From assembly GCA_903930255.1 (NCBI GenBank), contig CAIYYA010000236.1, forward strand, positions 1 to 63,122: 63,122 nt of DNA, given 5' to 3'. Shown here in pieces: positions 2,590-10,732 of the stretch. Each line of letters opens with the position of its first letter. Position 1 is the stretch's first letter. The notes under the pieces were generated by a model, which was not told where the DNA came from, did not search any database, and worked only from the letters and a program-made list of their open reading frames with translations. This stretch comes from an uncultured beta proteobacterium (GTDB taxonomy: Bacteria; Pseudomonadota; Gammaproteobacteria; Burkholderiales; Burkholderiaceae_C). A program made the position numbers and the translations under genes.

Positions 2590-3714
2590 ATGACCAGCGC
2601 AAAAATCTCAGCACCCCGCGTTCGACGCACGATTTTGGGTGATACAAGCGGAGCCAAAACCACAGCGGGTATTGGCAAGCAGGTGATCAAGAACAACACA
2701 AATGCAGCGCAAGACGCGCAAAACAGTGCGCTCCAAGATATTCTGGATCACGCCAGCAACAAAGCTGACGCGCTCAAGACATTCCTGGCGGGAAGTTCAC
2801 CCGACGATGTTGCCGCCATTCGCCAGATGCTGCTCGACAACACCGGTGGCAATGTCCCACCAACCAAACCCGACGAAGAGTTGTCGAGCGATTGGCGCAC
2901 CGGTGGTTATCCCTATAAAAACCTGATGTCGCGCAAGCGCTATGAGTCGCAAAAATACAAACTTCAAGTTGAGTTGCTGAAGCTGCAAAGCTGGGCCAAG
3001 GAGACCGGTCAACGCATCATCATCCTCTTTGAAGGTCGCGATGCAGCCGGCAAAGGCGGTGCCATTAAACGCTTTATGGAGCACTTGAACCCGCGTGGTG
3101 CCCGCTTGGTAGCGCTGGAAAAACCCTCAGCAACCGAGCTGGGGCAGTGGTACTTTCAGCGCTATGTGCAGCATTTGCCAACCGCTGGCGAAATCGTCAT
3201 GTTTGACCGCTCTTGGTACAACCGCGCCGGCGTTGAGCGGGTAATGGGTTTTTGCACCGAGGCGCAATACCAGCAGTTCATCCACCAGGCGCCTCTGTTT
3301 GAACGCCAATTGGTGCAAAGTGGTGTGCACCTGATCAAGTTCTGGTTTTCTGTCAGTCGCAAAGAACAGCGTCGCCGTTTCAAGGAACGCGAATTGCATC
3401 CGCTCAAACAATGGAAGCTCAGCCCGATTGACCTGGCCTCGCTGGACAAATGGGATCAGTACACCAAAGCCAAAGAAACCATGTTTTTTGAAACAGATAC
3501 CGCCGATGCACCGTGGACTGTGATCAAGTCAGACTGCAAAAAACGTGCGCGACTGAATGCCATGCGCTATGTTTTGCACAAAATGCCCTATACCAACAAA
3601 GAGCTGGAGAATATTGGCTCACTCGATACGCTGCTGGTGGGACGTGCCCATGTGGTTTATGAGCGCGGCGAACACCCATCTAGTGGGCTTATGAAATCAG
3701 CACCACAGGGTTAG
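2590..3714 (+). CDS. ppk2: Polyphosphate kinase 2 family protein
   Basis: PPK2 enzymes move phosphate between polyphosphate and nucleotides, mostly making ATP or GTP from the diphosphates. The 374-residue protein has a poorly conserved N-terminal extension (about 1-110), then the PPK2 core: Walker A in FEGRDAAGKGGAIKRF (about 147-162), the Walker B and lid region in DRSWYNRAGVERVMG (about 205-219), and a basic C-terminal lid (KEQRRRFKERE). I chose the ATG at 2590 because AGGAG lies 6-7 bases upstream of it; the ATG at 2575 has no such site. Its last four bases overlap the end of the convergent dsbB. Substrate preference (ADP, GDP or AMP) cannot be read from sequence alone. Confidence 0.92.
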   Translation: MTSAKISAPRVRRTILGDTSGAKTTAGIGKQVIKNNTNAAQDAQNSALQDILDHASNKADALKTFLAGSSPDDVAAIRQMLLDNTGGNVPPTKPDEELSSDWRTGGYPYKNLMSRKRYESQKYKLQVELLKLQSWAKETGQRIIILFEGRDAAGKGGAIKRFMEHLNPRGARLVALEKPSATELGQWYFQRYVQHLPTAGEIVMFDRSWYNRAGVERVMGFCTEAQYQQFIHQAPLFERQLVQSGVHLIKFWFSVSRKEQRRRFKERELHPLKQWKLSPIDLASLDKWDQYTKAKETMFFETDTADAPWTVIKSDCKKRARLNAMRYVLHKMPYTNKELENIGSLDTLLVGRAHVVYERGEHPSSGLMKSAPQG

Positions 3715-4813: not shown

Positions 4814-6597
4814 CACCCCCTTTGCCCTGGCAGGGCTTGACTCAGTGGCGCATCCTTGACACTGATTTCGGCAACGGCGACGCGTTTTTCAGCTTCTGGC
4901 AGCTCTGGCAAGCTGATGCACAGCGTCCGCGCATGTTGCATTATGTTGCGCTATCAAAAAACGCTCCGAGTCAGGCAGATTGGCGCCGATTGGCACAGTG
5001 TGAAGCCAATCTGAACGAGCCAAGTCAAGCACTTGCCAAGCATTGGTTCGGGTTATTACCAGGCTTTCACCGTTTTCTGCTTAGCCAGGGGCACGTTGTT
5101 TTGACCCTGTGCATCGGCGCGACTCTGCCCCTGCTGCGTCAGCAGCAGTTCGCGGCTGATAGCATCTTTTTACGCGAATCAACCCGTCTGCCGGACGGCG
5201 ATTTGATCTGGCTGGCCAAAGCATTGGCCGCATGCAGCCAGCGCGGCACCAGACTGCAAGCCATTCGCCCCCCTGCTACGCACAGCAGCAGCGTGCTTCT
5301 AGCAGCATTGCAGCATTGCGGATTTACCATTGCCAACACCCTGACCACAACAGACTGTGAGCACCTGATCGCCCACTATGAACCCGCCTGGACACTCAAG
5401 AACACACGCGCCACCCGGTTTTGTGTTGCAACACCCGTTGGTCGATGTGCGGTCATCGGCGCGGGTCTTGCCGGAGCCAGCGTAGCCGCCGCCCTGGCAA
5501 GGCGCGGTTGGCAAGTGCACGTGCATGAGCAGGCCGCAAACCCGGCAGCAGGTGCATCGGGTTTGCCTGTTGGACTGATTGCGCCCTATGTTTCAAAAGA
5601 TGACAGCGCACTTTCACAGCTGTCGCGAGCCGGGGTGCGCTTGATGCTCCAACAAGCGAAGGCGTTACTTGAAGCAGGTGCAGATTGGGCACCTGTGGGC
5701 GTTTTGGAGCGCCATATCGGCGGCACTCCAAGTTTGCCGGGGAACTGGCCAGATGCTGGCCATGCATGGTCAACCCTGGCGCGCCCTGCACTGCCACCTG
5801 ACGCATGGCGCACGGGGTTCGACACTGCACGCGATCTCTGGCACGCCCAAGCGGCCTGGCTCAAACCCGCGGCTTTGGTGCATGCTTGGCTGAATCAGAG
5901 CGGTGTGCAATTCACAGCAGGTCATGCGGTAGCGCGCATCTGCCGCCAGCAAGGTCAATGGACATTGAAAAACAGTCAGGGAACGGTTCTTGACAGCGCA
6001 GATCGCGTGGTTATCGCCAATGCCAGCGCTGCCACTTTGCTGCTACAGGCGCTTTCGCACGACTATCCACACCTTGCAAACGATCTGAAGCGTGTACCAG
6101 CCATGCACGGCATGCGGGGACAGCTCAGTTGGGGTCGGCATGCCGATGCGCCTTCTGCAGCTTTTGCGCCTTTTGGTGTGAATGGCTCGGGTAGCTTGAT
6201 TGCTGGCGTGCCAACCGAACTAGGTCTGGCCTGGTTTGCTGGCTCCAGTTACCAGCCAGCCGATCAGGTTGAACGCGGCGAAGCTGAAAACCACCTGCGT
6301 AATTTGCAACATCTACAGCTATTGCTTCCCACTTTGGCCAACGAATTAGCAGCCAAATTCATCGCGGGTCAGCTCAATGCATGGAAAGGCACACGCTGCA
6401 TCTCGGCTGATCGTTTGCCAGCGGTTGGCGCACTCGATGCAGCGGCACAAAGTGGACTCTGGCTGTGCGCTGGCATGGGCTCGCGCGGGCTGAGTTTATC
6501 GATGCTGTGTGCAGAGATATTAGCCGCGCAGTGGTGTGCCGAACCACTCCCGGTAGAAGCCAAGTTGGCGCAGTTGCTCGCAGCCCTGCGCTGTTGA
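4810..6597 (+). CDS. mnmC: MnmC-like tRNA wobble-uridine enzyme with degenerate methyltransferase domain
   Basis: MnmC normally finishes mnm5U34 in tRNA: an FAD domain removes the carboxymethyl group and an N-terminal SAM domain methylates the amine. The C-terminal FAD domain looks intact ([13 protein letters not shown], dinucleotide fold at about 216-228; [15 protein letters not shown] near the end). The N-terminal domain does not: the protein begins at a TTG about 45 residues inside the usual family N terminus, the SAM motif usually read as ETGFGxG is DTDFGNG (17-23), and the region where the catalytic aspartate sits in FLDGF reads FLRES (about 119-123). The total of 595 residues is shorter than typical betaproteobacterial MnmC as I recall it. 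Translationally coupled to yggX. The methyltransferase step is probably lost; the oxidoreductase step is probably kept. Confidence 0.85.
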
Positions 6598-6601
6598 AAA
6601 G

Positions 6602-7744
6602 CTACAAACGTTGCAGCTTTTCCAAAGCCCGGTTCAGCGTTTCGGTTTTTTTGGCAAAACAAAAACGCACCGTGTGCTGATCAAATCCATTGCCATAAAA
6701 CGCCGATAAAGGAATGGCAGCAACGCCCATTTCAGAGGTGAGCCAAGTGCAAAAATCGGCCTCCTTCATGTCGTTGACAGCAGATATATCAACGCATTGA
6801 AAGTAGCTACCTTCGCAGGGCAGCAGTTTGAGCTTGCTGCCGGCCAGGCCAGCACGAAACAGATCGCGTTTTTGCTGATAGAAATTCGACAAGTCGAGGT
6901 AGGCAGATGGTTTTTCCATAAAGTGCGCAAGCGCGTACTGCATGGGAGTGTTGACTGTGAAAACATTGAATTGGTGGACTTTGCGAAACTCATGAGTCAA
7001 GTTTTTAGGCGCTGCCACAAAGCCAACTTTCCAGCCCGTCACGTGATAAGTTTTGCCAAAACTTGAGATCACAAATGCACGCTGCGCTAACCCGGCGAAA
7101 CGGGAGGCACTTTGGTGCTGCTGCGCGTCAAAGACCATGTGCTCATAAACCTCGTCGCTGATCAATACGATGTCTGTTGGTGCCAGAAGTTGTTCGAGTT
7201 GACGCATTTCTTGCGCACTCCAGACGGTTGCACTCGGGTTATGCGGCGAGTTGACGATGATGGCGCGGGTTTTGGGCGTCATGGCGGCTGCAATTAGCGC
7301 GAAGTCCGGGCGAAAACTGCCCGGCTTCAGCGGCACCCGCACCGGGACACCGCCAGCCAGCTCGATATTGGGCACATAACTGTCATAGCACGGCTCTAAC
7401 ACGATCACCTCATCGCCCGGGTGCACCACTGACAAGATCGCTGTCAAAATACCCTGAGTTGCCCCTGCAGTAATGGTTAATTCGGTTGCGGGGCAATACT
7501 GATATGCGTAGAGCGCTTTAATTTTTATAGCAACTGCTTCACGTAACAGTAGCACCCCTGGCATCGGTGGATACTGGTTGAAGCCTTGTTGCATGGCTTG
7601 CGTGACCGCGTCGATAAGGCTTGGGTCGCAGTTAAAGTCTGGGAAACCCTGACCTAGATTAACCGCATTTTTTTCCGCAGCGAGTGCTGACATGACGCTG
7701 AAGATGGTCGTGCCAACGTTGGGGAGTTTGCTTTTCAGGTTCAT
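6602..7744 (-). CDS. PLP-dependent aminotransferase, YbdL/methionine aminotransferase type
   Basis: Class I/II aminotransferase of 380 residues. Seen: NLGQGFPDF (29-37), which binds substrate in the KAT/YbdL group; NSPHNPSATVW (165-175); the SDEVYEH motif (about 196); and the PLP lysine K231 in SSFGKTYHVTGWKVG. These are the marks of the YbdL/glutamine-transaminase K/kynurenine-aminotransferase family, where bacterial members prefer methionine and act in methionine salvage or keto-acid exchange. Full length and intact. It ends 4 bases from mnmC in convergent arrangement. Substrate is inferred from subfamily only. Confidence 0.88.
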   Translation of the reverse strand: MNLKSKLPNVGTTIFSVMSALAAEKNAVNLGQGFPDFNCDPSLIDAVTQAMQQGFNQYPPMPGVLLLREAVAIKIKALYAYQYCPATELTITAGATQGILTAILSVVHPGDEVIVLEPCYDSYVPNIELAGGVPVRVPLKPGSFRPDFALIAAAMTPKTRAIIVNSPHNPSATVWSAQEMRQLEQLLAPTDIVLISDEVYEHMVFDAQQHQSASRFAGLAQRAFVISSFGKTYHVTGWKVGFVAAPKNLTHEFRKVHQFNVFTVNTPMQYALAHFMEKPSAYLDLSNFYQQKRDLFRAGLAGSKLKLLPCEGSYFQCVDISAVNDMKEADFCTWLTSEMGVAAIPLSAFYGNGFDQHTVRFCFAKKTETLNRALEKLQRL

Positions 7745-8091: not shown

Positions 8092-8412
8092 CTACATCGG
8101 CAACACCGTAAACGTATTGGGTGTGAAACCATCGAGTGTCCGCAACAGCTCTGGCACCAAAGGCAAAAAGCTTTCCAATTTGTTGCTCGGTGCGAGCAAC
8201 ACAATCACGCCCATGGACAAATAAACCTGATTTTGCTGGGACTCCATGTTTTGGTCGCCTGTAATGAGCACATCAAAATCAACGCTGGCAGCGGCCAGCA
8301 GTTTGACGTTGTCAAGGCCACTCAAACCGATCTGCTGAACCGTTCGCACATAGTGGCCTGCCAGCAAAAAGCCGAGTTTTCTGGGCAGCGACTCGTCAAG
8401 CAGGATGCGCAT
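8092..8412 (-). CDS. DUF5615 PIN-like toxin
   Basis: 106-residue protein starting MRILLDESLPRKL, with D5/E6 and the later pattern DVLITGDQN (about 62-70), the acidic positions of the DUF5615 family, a compact PIN-like nuclease fold. Such proteins are usually paired with DUF433 antitoxins, as here, and are thought to act like VapC RNases, but cleavage targets are unknown. I chose the internal ATG because the upstream one adds twelve residues not resembling the family. The start overlaps the end of the DUF433 gene by 17 bases, indicating one transcript with the antitoxin first. Confidence 0.82.
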   Translation of the reverse strand: MRILLDESLPRKLGFLLAGHYVRTVQQIGLSGLDNVKLLAAASVDFDVLITGDQNMESQQNQVYLSMGVIVLLAPSNKLESFLPLVPELLRTLDGFTPNTFTVLPM

Positions 8413-8623
8413 TGCAGGCAGACAGCCGGATTTGTTCCAGTGACGCAATCACTTGTGCACGACTAACCGAGGGATACTCGTCCAAAAAGGCATCAATGCT
8501 GTCGCCAGTTTCCAGGTAGTCAAACAAAATACGAAACGGCACCCGCGTGCCTGAAAACACAGTCGTGCCGCGCAAGATGTCTGGTTTTGACCAAACGGCT
8601 GGTGCCGTATTTTGGTTTTGCAT
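8396..8623 (-). CDS. DUF433 family antitoxin
   Basis: 75-residue protein with the DUF433 pattern: a strand with TVFSGTRVPFRILFDYLETG (about 20-39) followed by FLDEYPSVSRAQVIASLE (about 45-62), the helix-turn-helix-like part. DUF433 proteins are VapB-like antitoxins that bind their own promoter and neutralise DUF5615 or VapC partners. First gene of the pair, overlapping the toxin. There is no visible sign of decay. Confidence 0.85.
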   Translation of the reverse strand: MQNQNTAPAVWSKPDILRGTTVFSGTRVPFRILFDYLETGDSIDAFLDEYPSVSRAQVIASLEQIRLSACNAHPA

Positions 8624-8640
8624 CTGTTTATTCTAGAACC

Positions 8641-8676
8641 AAACATCCCCAAAGGTGCTGCGCGCGCCAAACACTA
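8641..8676 (-). repeat. Shared post-stop block, copy C
   Basis: This stretch, immediately downstream (minus strand) of the DUF1566 remnant stop, matches 8825-8860 closely: both read aacaYccccaaaKgYgct and then GC-rich sequence and ccaaRcactRac on the plus strand. A shorter version follows the third DUF1566 locus. Conservation of noncoding sequence beyond the stop codon suggests a duplicated or exchanged cassette. Confidence 0.55.
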
Positions 8677-8718
8677 ACGCACGAATCGAACCTGGCCGCG
8701 GTTGACATTTGAACTGCC
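8674..8718 (-). pseudogene. C-terminal scrap of a DUF1566 gene
   Basis: Only the last 14 codons and stop are recognisable (GSSNVNRGQVRFVR), matching the SGHVRLVR ending of the two DUF1566 loci upstream. Nothing of the rest of the domain can be followed beyond about 8720. It is therefore a truncated paralogue or the trace of a recombination event at the 3' end. Confidence 0.5.
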
Positions 8719-8824
8719 AGAAATAATATGAAAAATAAGCCTCAAGCGCATGCCCACATTGCACAGACAGCTATGATTTTTAAAGTGAAAATCTACTCTG
8801 GCCCTCATTGCCCCCTGGCCCCAA

Positions 8825-8880
8825 ACACCCCCAAATGCGCTACGCGCCCCAAGCACTGACGGGCACGCAACTCACGCCCA
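8825..8880 (-). repeat. Shared post-stop block, copy A
   Basis: Noncoding block directly after the stop of the 8881-9339 DUF1566 gene. Together with the last coding bases (to about 8902) it is about 92% identical (four mismatches in about 54 bases by eye) to the block after the 9635 DUF1566 stop, and its distal half resembles copy C at 8641-8676. Confidence 0.6.
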
Positions 8881-9339
8881 CTACCGCACCAGCCGCACAT
8901 GGCCGGCGCTACCGCGGCCGTCGTAGTCGACGTAGCCACCGTAGAAATCGACGAACCAGGCGTAGGACGGATTGGCCGCATAGGGAGTCGATGTCCAGAA
9001 CCAGCTTGACTGCGTTGCCGGAAAAGCCGTGACATCAATGGCAGGGTAAATGCGGGTCTTGTCGGTGATGCTGGACAGCTCCTTCACATTGGGCAGGCGC
9101 CAGCCAGTTTGACTTTTGGCATAGCTCAGCGCGGCGTCATGCGTGAAACCAGCCGCTGTGCCGCCGCACGTCGTGATCGTGCCAGCCATCCAGGTCTGCC
9201 CTGCGCTGCAGCGCTGCCAGATCAGGCCGGTTTTGCTGTCGGTCACTTCTGCACCATCGGTCGAATAGCTAAAGCGTGCCTGTGCTTGCACGCTGCTGAC
9301 ACAACACAAACCGGCCAGCAGTGCCGCACTCACCAGCAT
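8881..9339 (-). CDS. Secreted DUF1566 (Lcl-type) protein; upstream start blocked by TGA
   Basis: Product of about 152 residues from the ATG at 9339: a signal-peptide-like stretch ending VSSVQAQA, then a DUF1566 domain (GLIWQRC; WRLPNVKEL; WTSTPYAANPSYAWFVDF) ending GHVRLVR. DUF1566 is a C-type-lectin-like fold seen in surface and collagen-like bacterial proteins; ligand unknown. The best ribosome-binding site (AAGGAG) is upstream of an in-frame ATG at 9396, but that frame hits TGA at 9366-9364 after ten codons; the present gene must use reinitiation at 9339 or TTG 9348, or be a pseudogene. The residues between VDF and GHVRLVR are almost all encoded by NNC/NNT codons and differ from the neighbouring paralogue. 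Confidence 0.65.
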   Translation of the reverse strand: MLVSAALLAGLCCVSSVQAQARFSYSTDGAEVTDSKTGLIWQRCSAGQTWMAGTITTCGGTAAGFTHDAALSYAKSQTGWRLPNVKELSSITDKTRIYPAIDVTAFPATQSSWFWTSTPYAANPSYAWFVDFYGGYVDYDGRGSAGHVRLVR

Positions 9340-9396
9340 TTGACCCAACGGGTGGCATGAGCGTCATTGTGGGCGCAAAATTTTCAGACAGTTCAT

Positions 9397-9589
9397 TGGA
9401 TTTCTCCTTCAGGTTTTAAAAATTGACGGACACAGGGCAGACGATTTATGAATTCGGAGTCTTTAGTTGTTAGAAACTCCAAACAATGCCGATCCGGTTT
9501 ATTGCCCCATCTTTTGAAATTGCCCGTTTGGTGTGGTAGCTGTGAGTTTTTAGTATTCAACTCAAGACTCGGCTGATGAGTCACTTTTA
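9397..9589. other. Intergenic region between DUF1566 loci
   Basis: Contains the leader and the AAGGAG site of the 8881-9396 locus at its left end and an imperfect hairpin around 9456-9480 (ggagtcttt / agaaactcc). An 80-codon open frame crosses it on the minus strand but has no recognisable features and no ribosome-binding site; I do not call it. Confidence 0.4.
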
Positions 9590-9637
9590 ACACCCCAAAA
9601 AGCCAAACACTGAAGGGCTCGCAACTCACGCCCACTA
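9590..9637 (-). repeat. Shared post-stop block, copy B
   Basis: Noncoding block after the 9635 DUF1566 stop. The segment reading acactgaagggctcgcaact on the plus strand matches copy A with a few substitutions and continues into near-identical final codons of the gene. Further out, the ccccaaa and ccaaacact elements are also shared with copy C. Confidence 0.6.
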
Positions 9638-10732
9638 CCGCACCAGCCGGACATGGCCGGAGTCGTAGCGGTTGTTCCAGTTGACGCTGCCTGTTGGTTG
9701 TACGTAGCCAAAGCGGAAATCGACGATCCAGAAGACAGACGGATCAAAGGACCAAGAAGTGGCAGACCAGTAAGCATCTGGAGCGGTATTGGTGGCGGCA
9801 TCTATGTCGGTCTGCGTTGGGTTGACAGAGGCGCTGTCATTCCAGAACTGGGCTGCCGCCGTGTTGTCGTAGTTGGTGTAGCTGGCGGGGTTGGGCACGC
9901 TGCTGTAGCTGAAGCCGAGCTTGCCATCTGCGGCATCGGGTGTGCTGACGTCGCGTCCGATCATGCCGTCCTGGCTGGCGTTGAGGGCGATGGCCGTGGC
10001 ACTGGTGCAACTGACCAGCACATCGCTTCCGGCTGCATAGCACTGGCTGGCGGTGATGCCGGTGTCGGTGAGCGCAAAGGTTGGCGGCAGCGTGGTGGAA
10101 CCACCCCCTGTGGCAGCGACTGCGCTCACATTCAGCCAAAAACCCGCTTGCAGTCCAATCGCCGTCTCAAATGCTGCATAAGTTTTGCTGTTGATGTAAT
10201 CGGACAATACTGTGCCACCCAGTGCAGCCAGCGATGGTGCAAAAAACTTCCAGCGGGCCGCGCTGGCTTCCCAAGCACATTGCGTTGCAATGCCTTTGCC
10301 GGCTGCACCAAGGCTGGTGCTCAGCCCGGCGTTAAGTTGGGTTGGCGTTTTAGCATCGGCACTGGCGGATAGATTCCAGCCCAGCGCCAGATCGCTTTCG
10401 AGCAAGACAACGGCAGGGCCAGTCACTTGCGCAGGAGCTGGGTCAATCAGGCTGGGAGTTATTGCTGCGTTGACCCAGAAGCCTACTTTGGTTCCAATAC
10501 TGCCAAGCACATCGTAACCCTTGTTTTGTGCTTAAGTCGCCAATTCAGGTGCAGTCATGTTGGGCGTATAGAAAGCCCATTTGCTTGATGCCTTGTTCCA
10601 TTTCCAGACGGTTACCACCTTGCTGGTGTCATTCAAACGGGTCACAACATCAATGGCACTGGTTTCACTGTTACCCAGCAAATTCCACACTTTCACAACA
10701 TCGATGGTGACGCCAAACGAACTGGCAGACAT
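9635..10732 (-). pseudogene. Large secreted DUF1566 protein interrupted by an in-frame TAA
   Basis: One reading frame split by TAA at 10534-10532. The upstream part (10732-10535, 66 codons) and downstream part (9635-10510, 291 codons, opening at a GTG) are in the same frame and belong together: each contains one copy of a repeat with the pattern WNL...W.W.....W.F..P....L..Y....Y.....I....GFWxN, and the TAA falls exactly where repeat 2 has tyrosine, so a single TAY-to-TAA change explains it. A DUF1566 domain follows (YWSATSW; WIVDFRFGYV; ending SGHVRLVR). A signal-peptide-like stretch (RVKLFAALAVCAM) lies in frame just upstream of 10732 but no ATG/GTG/TTG precedes it, so the true start may also be lost. 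It begins 75 bases after the ruvB stop, on the same strand. Confidence 0.7.

Follow-up and report, generated by a model that had tools for sequence, protein, structure and literature searches.

The window, that is, the whole 63,122-nt stretch of DNA that was analysed, is contig C236 of the draft genome G000 (4.5 Mb in 377 contigs, 93.67% complete, 6.51% contamination), and three DUF1566 loci lie one after another on its minus strand. The first, a long gene here called target a, is open at 9635..10510 (-), and an N-terminal part in the same frame reads as an ORF at 10532..10732 (-) that is ended by a TAA. Target b (8881..9396, -; ORF listed as 8881-9348) is a short gene of secreted type with an Lcl_C match of 107 bits; target a scored 24.4 bits against this profile, below the 34.9 cut-off and at profile positions 65-117 only. 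Both genes carry a variable segment, at 9656..9727 (-) in target a (IVDFRFGYVQPTGSVNWNNRYDSG, longer than its counterpart in target b by an insertion) and at 8902..8955 (-) in target b (FVDFYGGYVDYDGRGSAG), and both finish in a shared end block (9603..9660, comprising the final codons and some 32 nt past the stop, and 8849..8906, both -). At 9393..9431 (-), at the start of target b, lies an apparent relic of a reverse transcriptase (RT), VRQFLKPEGEIQ plus a stop. The third locus is a remnant of a target end (8640..8709, -), with NVNRGQVRFVR and a stop at 8674-8709 and a post-stop block. As the first-pass annotation had claimed, all three loci end in VR(L/F)VR, GHVRLVR being the C-terminal end of both 8881-9348 (-) and 9635-10510 (-). 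The remnant is adjoined by a DUF5615 and DUF433 pair (8092-8448 and 8396-8623, -), an arrangement which we take to be toxin-antitoxin-like. Profile searches returned 20 DUF1566 matches in the draft genome. Matches on contigs C140 and C229 run off the contig ends, and such assembly breaks may hide further targets; on another contig (C357:12500-16032, L034), further decayed DUF1566 pieces and an end block occur, at 2612-2726 and 3031-3088.

The two long loci have the framework W-x-V-x-F-xx-G-x-V-...-R-xxxx-HVRLVR in common, with the insertion of the 9635 gene placed inside it, and the earlier description of a constant framework around a variable interior was thus borne out. In target b the nucleotide frame is TGG-x-GTC-x-TTC-xx-GGC-x-GTC-xxxx-CGC-xxxx-CAT-GTG-CGG, and all 13 variable codons are NNY, in agreement with the NNC/NNT-like composition that had been reported for this gene. 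NNY was counted in the eight end-block copies that fit the pattern (one from the window, two from G013, one from G023, three from G219 and one from G459), where it accounted for 103 of 104 variable codons. Left out of this count are the 9635 gene and G023:C146, whose insertions keep them from fitting the pattern. The insertion of the 9635 gene holds CAA, CCA, ACA and TGG codons, and the phrase "almost wholly NNY" is less true of that gene. Ordinary diversifying selection on a lectin surface, acting in genes whose bias toward C-ending codons gives the NNY look, would be another way to such a pattern: GC-rich genes favour third-position C, and the most frequent residues at the variable positions are G, S, Y, N and D, as would be expected of a binding surface. 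However, in 15 other ends, which fit the framework loosely, only 158 of 195 codons were NNY (Fisher 7e-7 against 103/104). These controls included L226, L228, L229, L233 and L234 (L233 and L234 are viral), each with 13/13 NNY, and these five ends look DGR-written, that is, written by a diversity-generating retroelement (DGR); minus the five, the control value was 93/130 (Fisher 9e-10). An ordinary orthologue pair moreover keeps its third-position excess in the same segment, and RT genes of one family adjoin the targets (both described below), which leaves selection by itself a highly improbable explanation.

Differences at codon positions 1, 2 and 3 were counted over the 28 columns before VRLVR in nine family pairs. 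The closest pair, the tandem genes G219 a/b, differed at 8, 10 and 0 sites, respectively, and window b/a at 11, 8 and 2; the values were 12, 12, 4 for G023 a/b and 9, 6, 5 for G013 a/b. Target b of the window gave 11, 8, 6 against G023a and also against G023b, and 12, 11, 5 against G013b, while G219b gave 15, 15, 5 against window b and 10, 13, 9 against G023a. Upstream of the segment, alignable pairs showed an excess of third-position differences (3, 7, 21 in G023 a/b; 7, 10, 28 in window b/G023a); the upstream parts of G219 a/b and window a/b could hardly be aligned. In the control, the ordinary orthologue pair G010/G023:C82, the segment (2, 3, 9) and the upstream part (3, 12, 23) both had this excess. 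Fisher's test of segment versus upstream part, applied to six of the nine pairs, which are not independent of one another, gave p from 5e-5 to 0.01 (control 1.0). Non-synonymous change among the relatives is concentrated in the segment, as the first-pass annotation had expected of such a comparison. Speaking against DGR writing, some pairs do differ at third positions, G013 a/b and G219b/G023a among them.

The earlier note had also allowed for plain gene conversion, in which conversion or cassette recombination among DUF1566 paralogues would move 3' ends without reverse transcription. Ends are indeed common to genes that are unrelated upstream (window a/b and G219 a/b), and the 20 DUF1566 matches in the genome would provide material. 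Conversion, however, copies existing letters and would not limit differences to positions 1 and 2 of NNY codons; alone it fails to explain the absent third-position changes in G219 a/b, and searches of the genome turned up no donor for the segments of the window. Although conversion may have helped to spread the ends after writing, it is very unlikely to account for the island.

The window protein had 314 homologues, and variability across this wider family was measured in an alignment of the 120 that were listed. The 13 positions at which templates have N reached 3.08-3.35 bits each, and the residues between them were nearly fixed (W128, V130, F132, G135 and R142 at 0.14-0.32 bits; V137 at 0.98). 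Two columns just ahead of the 13, 125 and 126, were equally variable (3.08 and 3.33 bits), although N also occurs there in some templates. A scarcity of NNY-incompatible residues (W, M, Q, K, E) at variable positions was initially considered as evidence (53/1554 versus 87/719); this argument was dropped because the contrast vanishes once the Trp column is removed (47/1554 versus 24/719, p 0.70).

The end blocks of the two long loci (8849-8906 and 9603-9660) align over 58 nt with 93% identity (E 3.7e-18), close to what had been stated for the last codons and post-stop bases; taken as a single ungapped repeat of 89 nt, the same two ends are 80% identical. The post-stop block of the third remnant aligns with that of the 8881 gene, in keeping with the longer common block claimed before. 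Beyond the window's genome, copies of the end block were found in three Comamonadaceae-related members of its genus, which includes G013 and G023, and in one genome of another genus, so that a conserved, IMH-like 3' end block is present in both window genes and in the G013, G023, G219 and G459 copies; it would have served as the homing sequence. Among 299 family genomes, with at most three candidates scored per genome, nine had an end-block match at E <= 0.001, G000 and G219 included. Of the other seven, the match in G310 was dismissed as chance, lying inside a gene read as kynureninase, and six are candidate matches (E 3e-4 to 6e-4). The genome-contig collection yielded seven stretches, three real and four chance on reading. 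A hairpin or cruciform just past the segment is a feature of DGR targets, according to one report (PMC3240598). In several copies a GC-rich inverted repeat lies about 30 nt after the stop; it is absent from w9635, G013a and G219a. Folding gives no support to a post-stop stem-loop as homing signal: four of five stretches folded no better than shuffled sequences and the stronger-than-shuffle fold of the fifth is a different stem.

Templates with the same wording exist elsewhere. Pattern matches were obtained in 57 viral contigs, and a related pattern matched 4 of 399 family genomes; the translations read AWNVNFNNGNVNNN(N/H)RNNN... or close variants. The window segment matches DGR templates of the form AWNVNFNNGNVNNNNRNNNN(H/Y)VRxVR without gaps, and in the ungapped comparison of AWFVDFYGGYVDYDGRGSAGHVRLVR with template L169 (AWIVNFNNGNVNNNNRNNNNYVRPVR) the non-N residues agree save for I/F, Y/H and P/L. 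Template, RT and DUF1566 target occur together in G022:C108, of the same genus. In the viral DGR L233 (IMGVR_UViG_3300047202_000009), a target 40% identical to the window protein, a template (AWNVNFNNGNVNNNNRNNNNYVRPVR) with the same framework and a DGR-type RT stand side by side; unlike the window locus, L233 is complete, has the tail VRPVR and another post-stop sequence, and carries its template at the start of the RT frame. DUF1566 is, in two published accounts, the most common Pfam domain of DGR targets, and the DUF1566/Lcl_C DGRs described there resemble the window in target domain, framework, template N positions and a VR at the 3' end of the gene, whereas the window has no working RT or template at the locus (PMC4159848, PMC6642488). 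No template with the window's end block was found in any search, and adenine origin is accordingly read from the signature and from the templates of other DGRs; the AAY-to-NNY change within a constant framework is likewise deduced here without a cognate template. Searches for a carrier of the cognate element gave no match to the template-plus-end pattern and none to the RT-stub pattern, window DNA had no match among plasmids and window protein none among phages, and the end-block pattern matched two viral contigs, both by chance on reading. RT P0121, a homologue described below, matched 579 stretches of viral contigs (the best 80 at 46-54% identity in the best segment), 36 plasmid records and 78 phage records, with all plasmid and phage matches below 60% identity.

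The first-pass annotation had reported neither an RT nor a template repeat in the window. No intact RT is present, but the last 12 codons of one apparently survive at 9393-9431: 10 of their 12 residues are as in the C-terminus of DGR RT P0121. The protein match alone is weak (tblastn E 0.13); at the nucleotide level, the junction of RT and target has 28 identical nt (9401-9428) in the window and in G459:C85, compared with 12 in the best of 500 shuffles. As in G459, the relic's stop, a TGA, overlaps ATG 9396 of target b, and the 12-codon stub could be kept mainly as the leader of that gene. An alignment of six DGR RTs, searched against 89 genomes of the genus, matched in 42 of them at E <= 1e-8, group II types included, and a DGR-type motif was scored by script in 10 of 25 RT loci scanned (30 were returned). 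An eleventh locus, G459:C85, holds an N-terminally truncated RT (LPVGNLTSQ, RDVDD) with its stop overlapping the start of a window-type target and with the end block present. All of the 12 best homologues of this RT (P0121-P0132) have VGNLTSQ and RYVDD, nine of them with 404-437 aa and three shorter, and a FLKPEGE-like tail ends 11 of the 12.

Relatives of the locus have lost the RT to different extents. With tblastn, P0121 was recovered over residues 156-419 in G459 (85%), in pieces in G023:C146 (61-95, 321-340, 335-392 with a stop, and 382-419), over 402-418 in G013 (E 0.013) and over 402-417 in the window; nothing credible was found in G219. The same target is immediately preceded by RT remnants in G459 and G023:C146 and by the stub in G013 and the window, and in G023:C146 the RT start directly follows the end block of an upstream, frame-broken target. 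Nine pairs of target and RT homologues (from 120 of each) had longest contigs of identical size, at least 3000 nt, where a shifted-size null gave a mean of 0.44 and a maximum of 4, and for eight of the nine the listed sources overlap; these coincidences are circumstantial, because the pairing rests on matching sizes. P0128, P0129, P0131 and P0181 are shorter than their relatives (211-358 aa) with parts missing, some perhaps cut by contig ends. From the sequences, it looks as if RT decay were frequent in the P0121 family. Altogether, the codon positions, the NNY codons, the ungapped match to A-rich templates, the end block and the RTs beside homologous targets make it well supported that the variable segments were written in DGR style.

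An RT and a template in the rest of the genome were searched for, as had been proposed. Three PF00078 RTs were found in the window's genome, on C9 (QGGPLSP), C231 (a fragment, QGAVISP) and C74 (IGSLSSQ, RYVDD), and the one on C74, the sole DGR-type RT in the draft, does not match the window locus. In G219 there were nine PF00078 matches, eight with QG(G/S)PLSP and one with QGACTSS, none with a DGR-type motif; G013 and G023 had one match each, of the QGxxxSP type. The RT labels group II and retron-like follow the motifs and are presumptive. A DNA search with both window segments found no cognate template in the draft genome, and the template pattern, with up to three mismatches, matched only C74 there; G013, G023 and G219 likewise gave no cognate template by DNA or pattern. 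Because the genome is a draft, these absences are absences from the assembly.

C74 carries an apparently complete second DGR (L024, C74:25000-35436), with the RT at L024 7211-8482 (+), the template core at C74:33494-33631 (-) and the DUF1566 target segment at C74:34500-34637 (-). Over 138 nt, template and target have 26 mismatches, 24 of them at template adenines, with one C-to-A and one T-to-G. Template and target share one strand and the RT is on the other, an arrangement also seen in G442:C113 (L244). A 204-aa ORF between template and target (L024:8870-9481, that is, C74:33869-34480, -) had no family in Pfam, PHROGs or NCBIfam; it is possibly an accessory gene, and the name Avd was withheld for lack of a family match. 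The check proposed in the first-pass annotation thus comes out mixed: the genome does hold a DGR-type RT and an A-rich template, but neither matches the window genes, and change among the relatives is, as said above, concentrated in the segment. Like the window, the C74 DGR has a DUF1566 target; it differs in its template, in the gene end YVSCVR and in an RT that is about 37% identical to P0121. C74 was rejected as the source of the window segments, as segment, gene end and template all differ. The 9635 insertion and the C74 template agree at 92% over 25 nt (E 0.019); since NVNWNN is found in further templates as well, this match is taken as common template wording, with a shared origin still conceivable.

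Damage is seen in both window targets. Read from ATG 9396 and compared with homologue P0002, target b runs into a TGA at codon 11, and a start at the internal ATG 9339 would keep the hydrophobic stretch and lose the start of the signal peptide. Target a is interrupted by the TAA at 10532-10534, lacks a 32-residue block that BLAST finds in G013a, and also lacks a second block before the segment, as seen with the two sequences side by side. The fold of the targets is probably lectin-like, according to an uncertain model; a sequence search of solved structures gave nothing below E 0.4.

The targets might nevertheless be live, if an RT and template acted on them in trans from sequence missing in the assembly, from a mobile element or from other cells, or if the C74 RT worked with an unseen template. 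The draft state of the genome (93.67% complete, 377 contigs) leaves room for this, and the ends of G219 a/b, identical save for codon positions 1 and 2 of the segment, suggest recent writing in a three-contig genome where no DGR-type RT was found. G219 has open DUF1566 genes, unrelated upstream, at 4970-6139 and 6469-6960 (+) of G219:C1:1880000-1893000 (L153). However, G000, G013, G023 and G219 hold no cognate template by DNA or pattern and, except for C74, no PF00078 match of DGR type; the C74 template and end differ from those of the window; both window targets are damaged, and G013 is in the same stub-only state. A live target is therefore unlikely. Accordingly, although the proposed DGR reading stands as far as DGR-type writing is concerned, the evidence does not extend to a working DGR at the window locus: searches of the draft genome found no cognate template or RT, the local RT is a relic of 12 codons, and both targets are damaged.

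Taken together, these data indicate that the island is very probably a fossil DGR locus, of DGR origin and no longer a working system. The ancestral order on one strand was likely target a, template, RT and target b, with the stop of the RT overlapping the start of target b. We place the template beside the RT start because G023:C146 sets the upstream target there and because the RT protein P0133, from residue 46, reads template-like in another frame (back-translated by eye). The element most likely worked in the manner of other DGRs: template RNA would have been copied with errors at adenines, and the cDNA would have replaced the 3' part of the DUF1566 targets, with the end block anchoring the replacement, such that NNY codons arose from AAY while framework and end block were preserved. 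Template and RT would later have been deleted, leaving two written targets, the third remnant and the last 12 RT codons, within which the GGAG ribosome-binding sequence of target b also lies. The targets would have been secreted proteins of lectin fold, with the variable residues at a binding surface.

Leftover DGR targets whose RT and template are gone have been described in Treponema denticola isolates, and in one of these a complete DGR coexists with leftovers of a different type (PMC4891356). The window resembles those cases in having written-type targets without RT or template, and leftovers beside another complete DGR (here C74). It differs in that the case for adenine origin is made without a known cognate template, in that an RT stub is still in place, and in that RT loss is graded across several species, in betaproteobacteria; the stub in place and the graded loss are additions to the T. 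denticola leftovers. A literature search without most subscription papers found no title on RT stubs beside DGR targets, and no literature was found that joins diversity-generating retroelements with Rhodoferax.

More tentatively, and with considerable doubt, DGRs in this lineage may be write-then-lose modules, in which template and RT are repeatedly deleted, possibly when the template recombines with target ends that are almost identical to it, while the lectin variants written last persist as fixed genes. Such a series would run from a full-length RT (P0121) through a truncated RT with an intact target (G459) and a gutted RT (G023:C146) to a stub only (G013 and the window), and finally to no trace beside two open, freshly diverged targets (G219). 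Retention by selection is unsupported in the window, because its targets are damaged. The series of decay stages falls within one bacterial group, and DGR targets remain recognisable after loss of the machinery from their codon positions and end block. Such loci would be overlooked in surveys that begin with the RT; a large survey itself states that remote targets would escape detection (PMC8144416). If selection keeps written variants in place once the RT is gone, DGRs would supply new fixed binding proteins.
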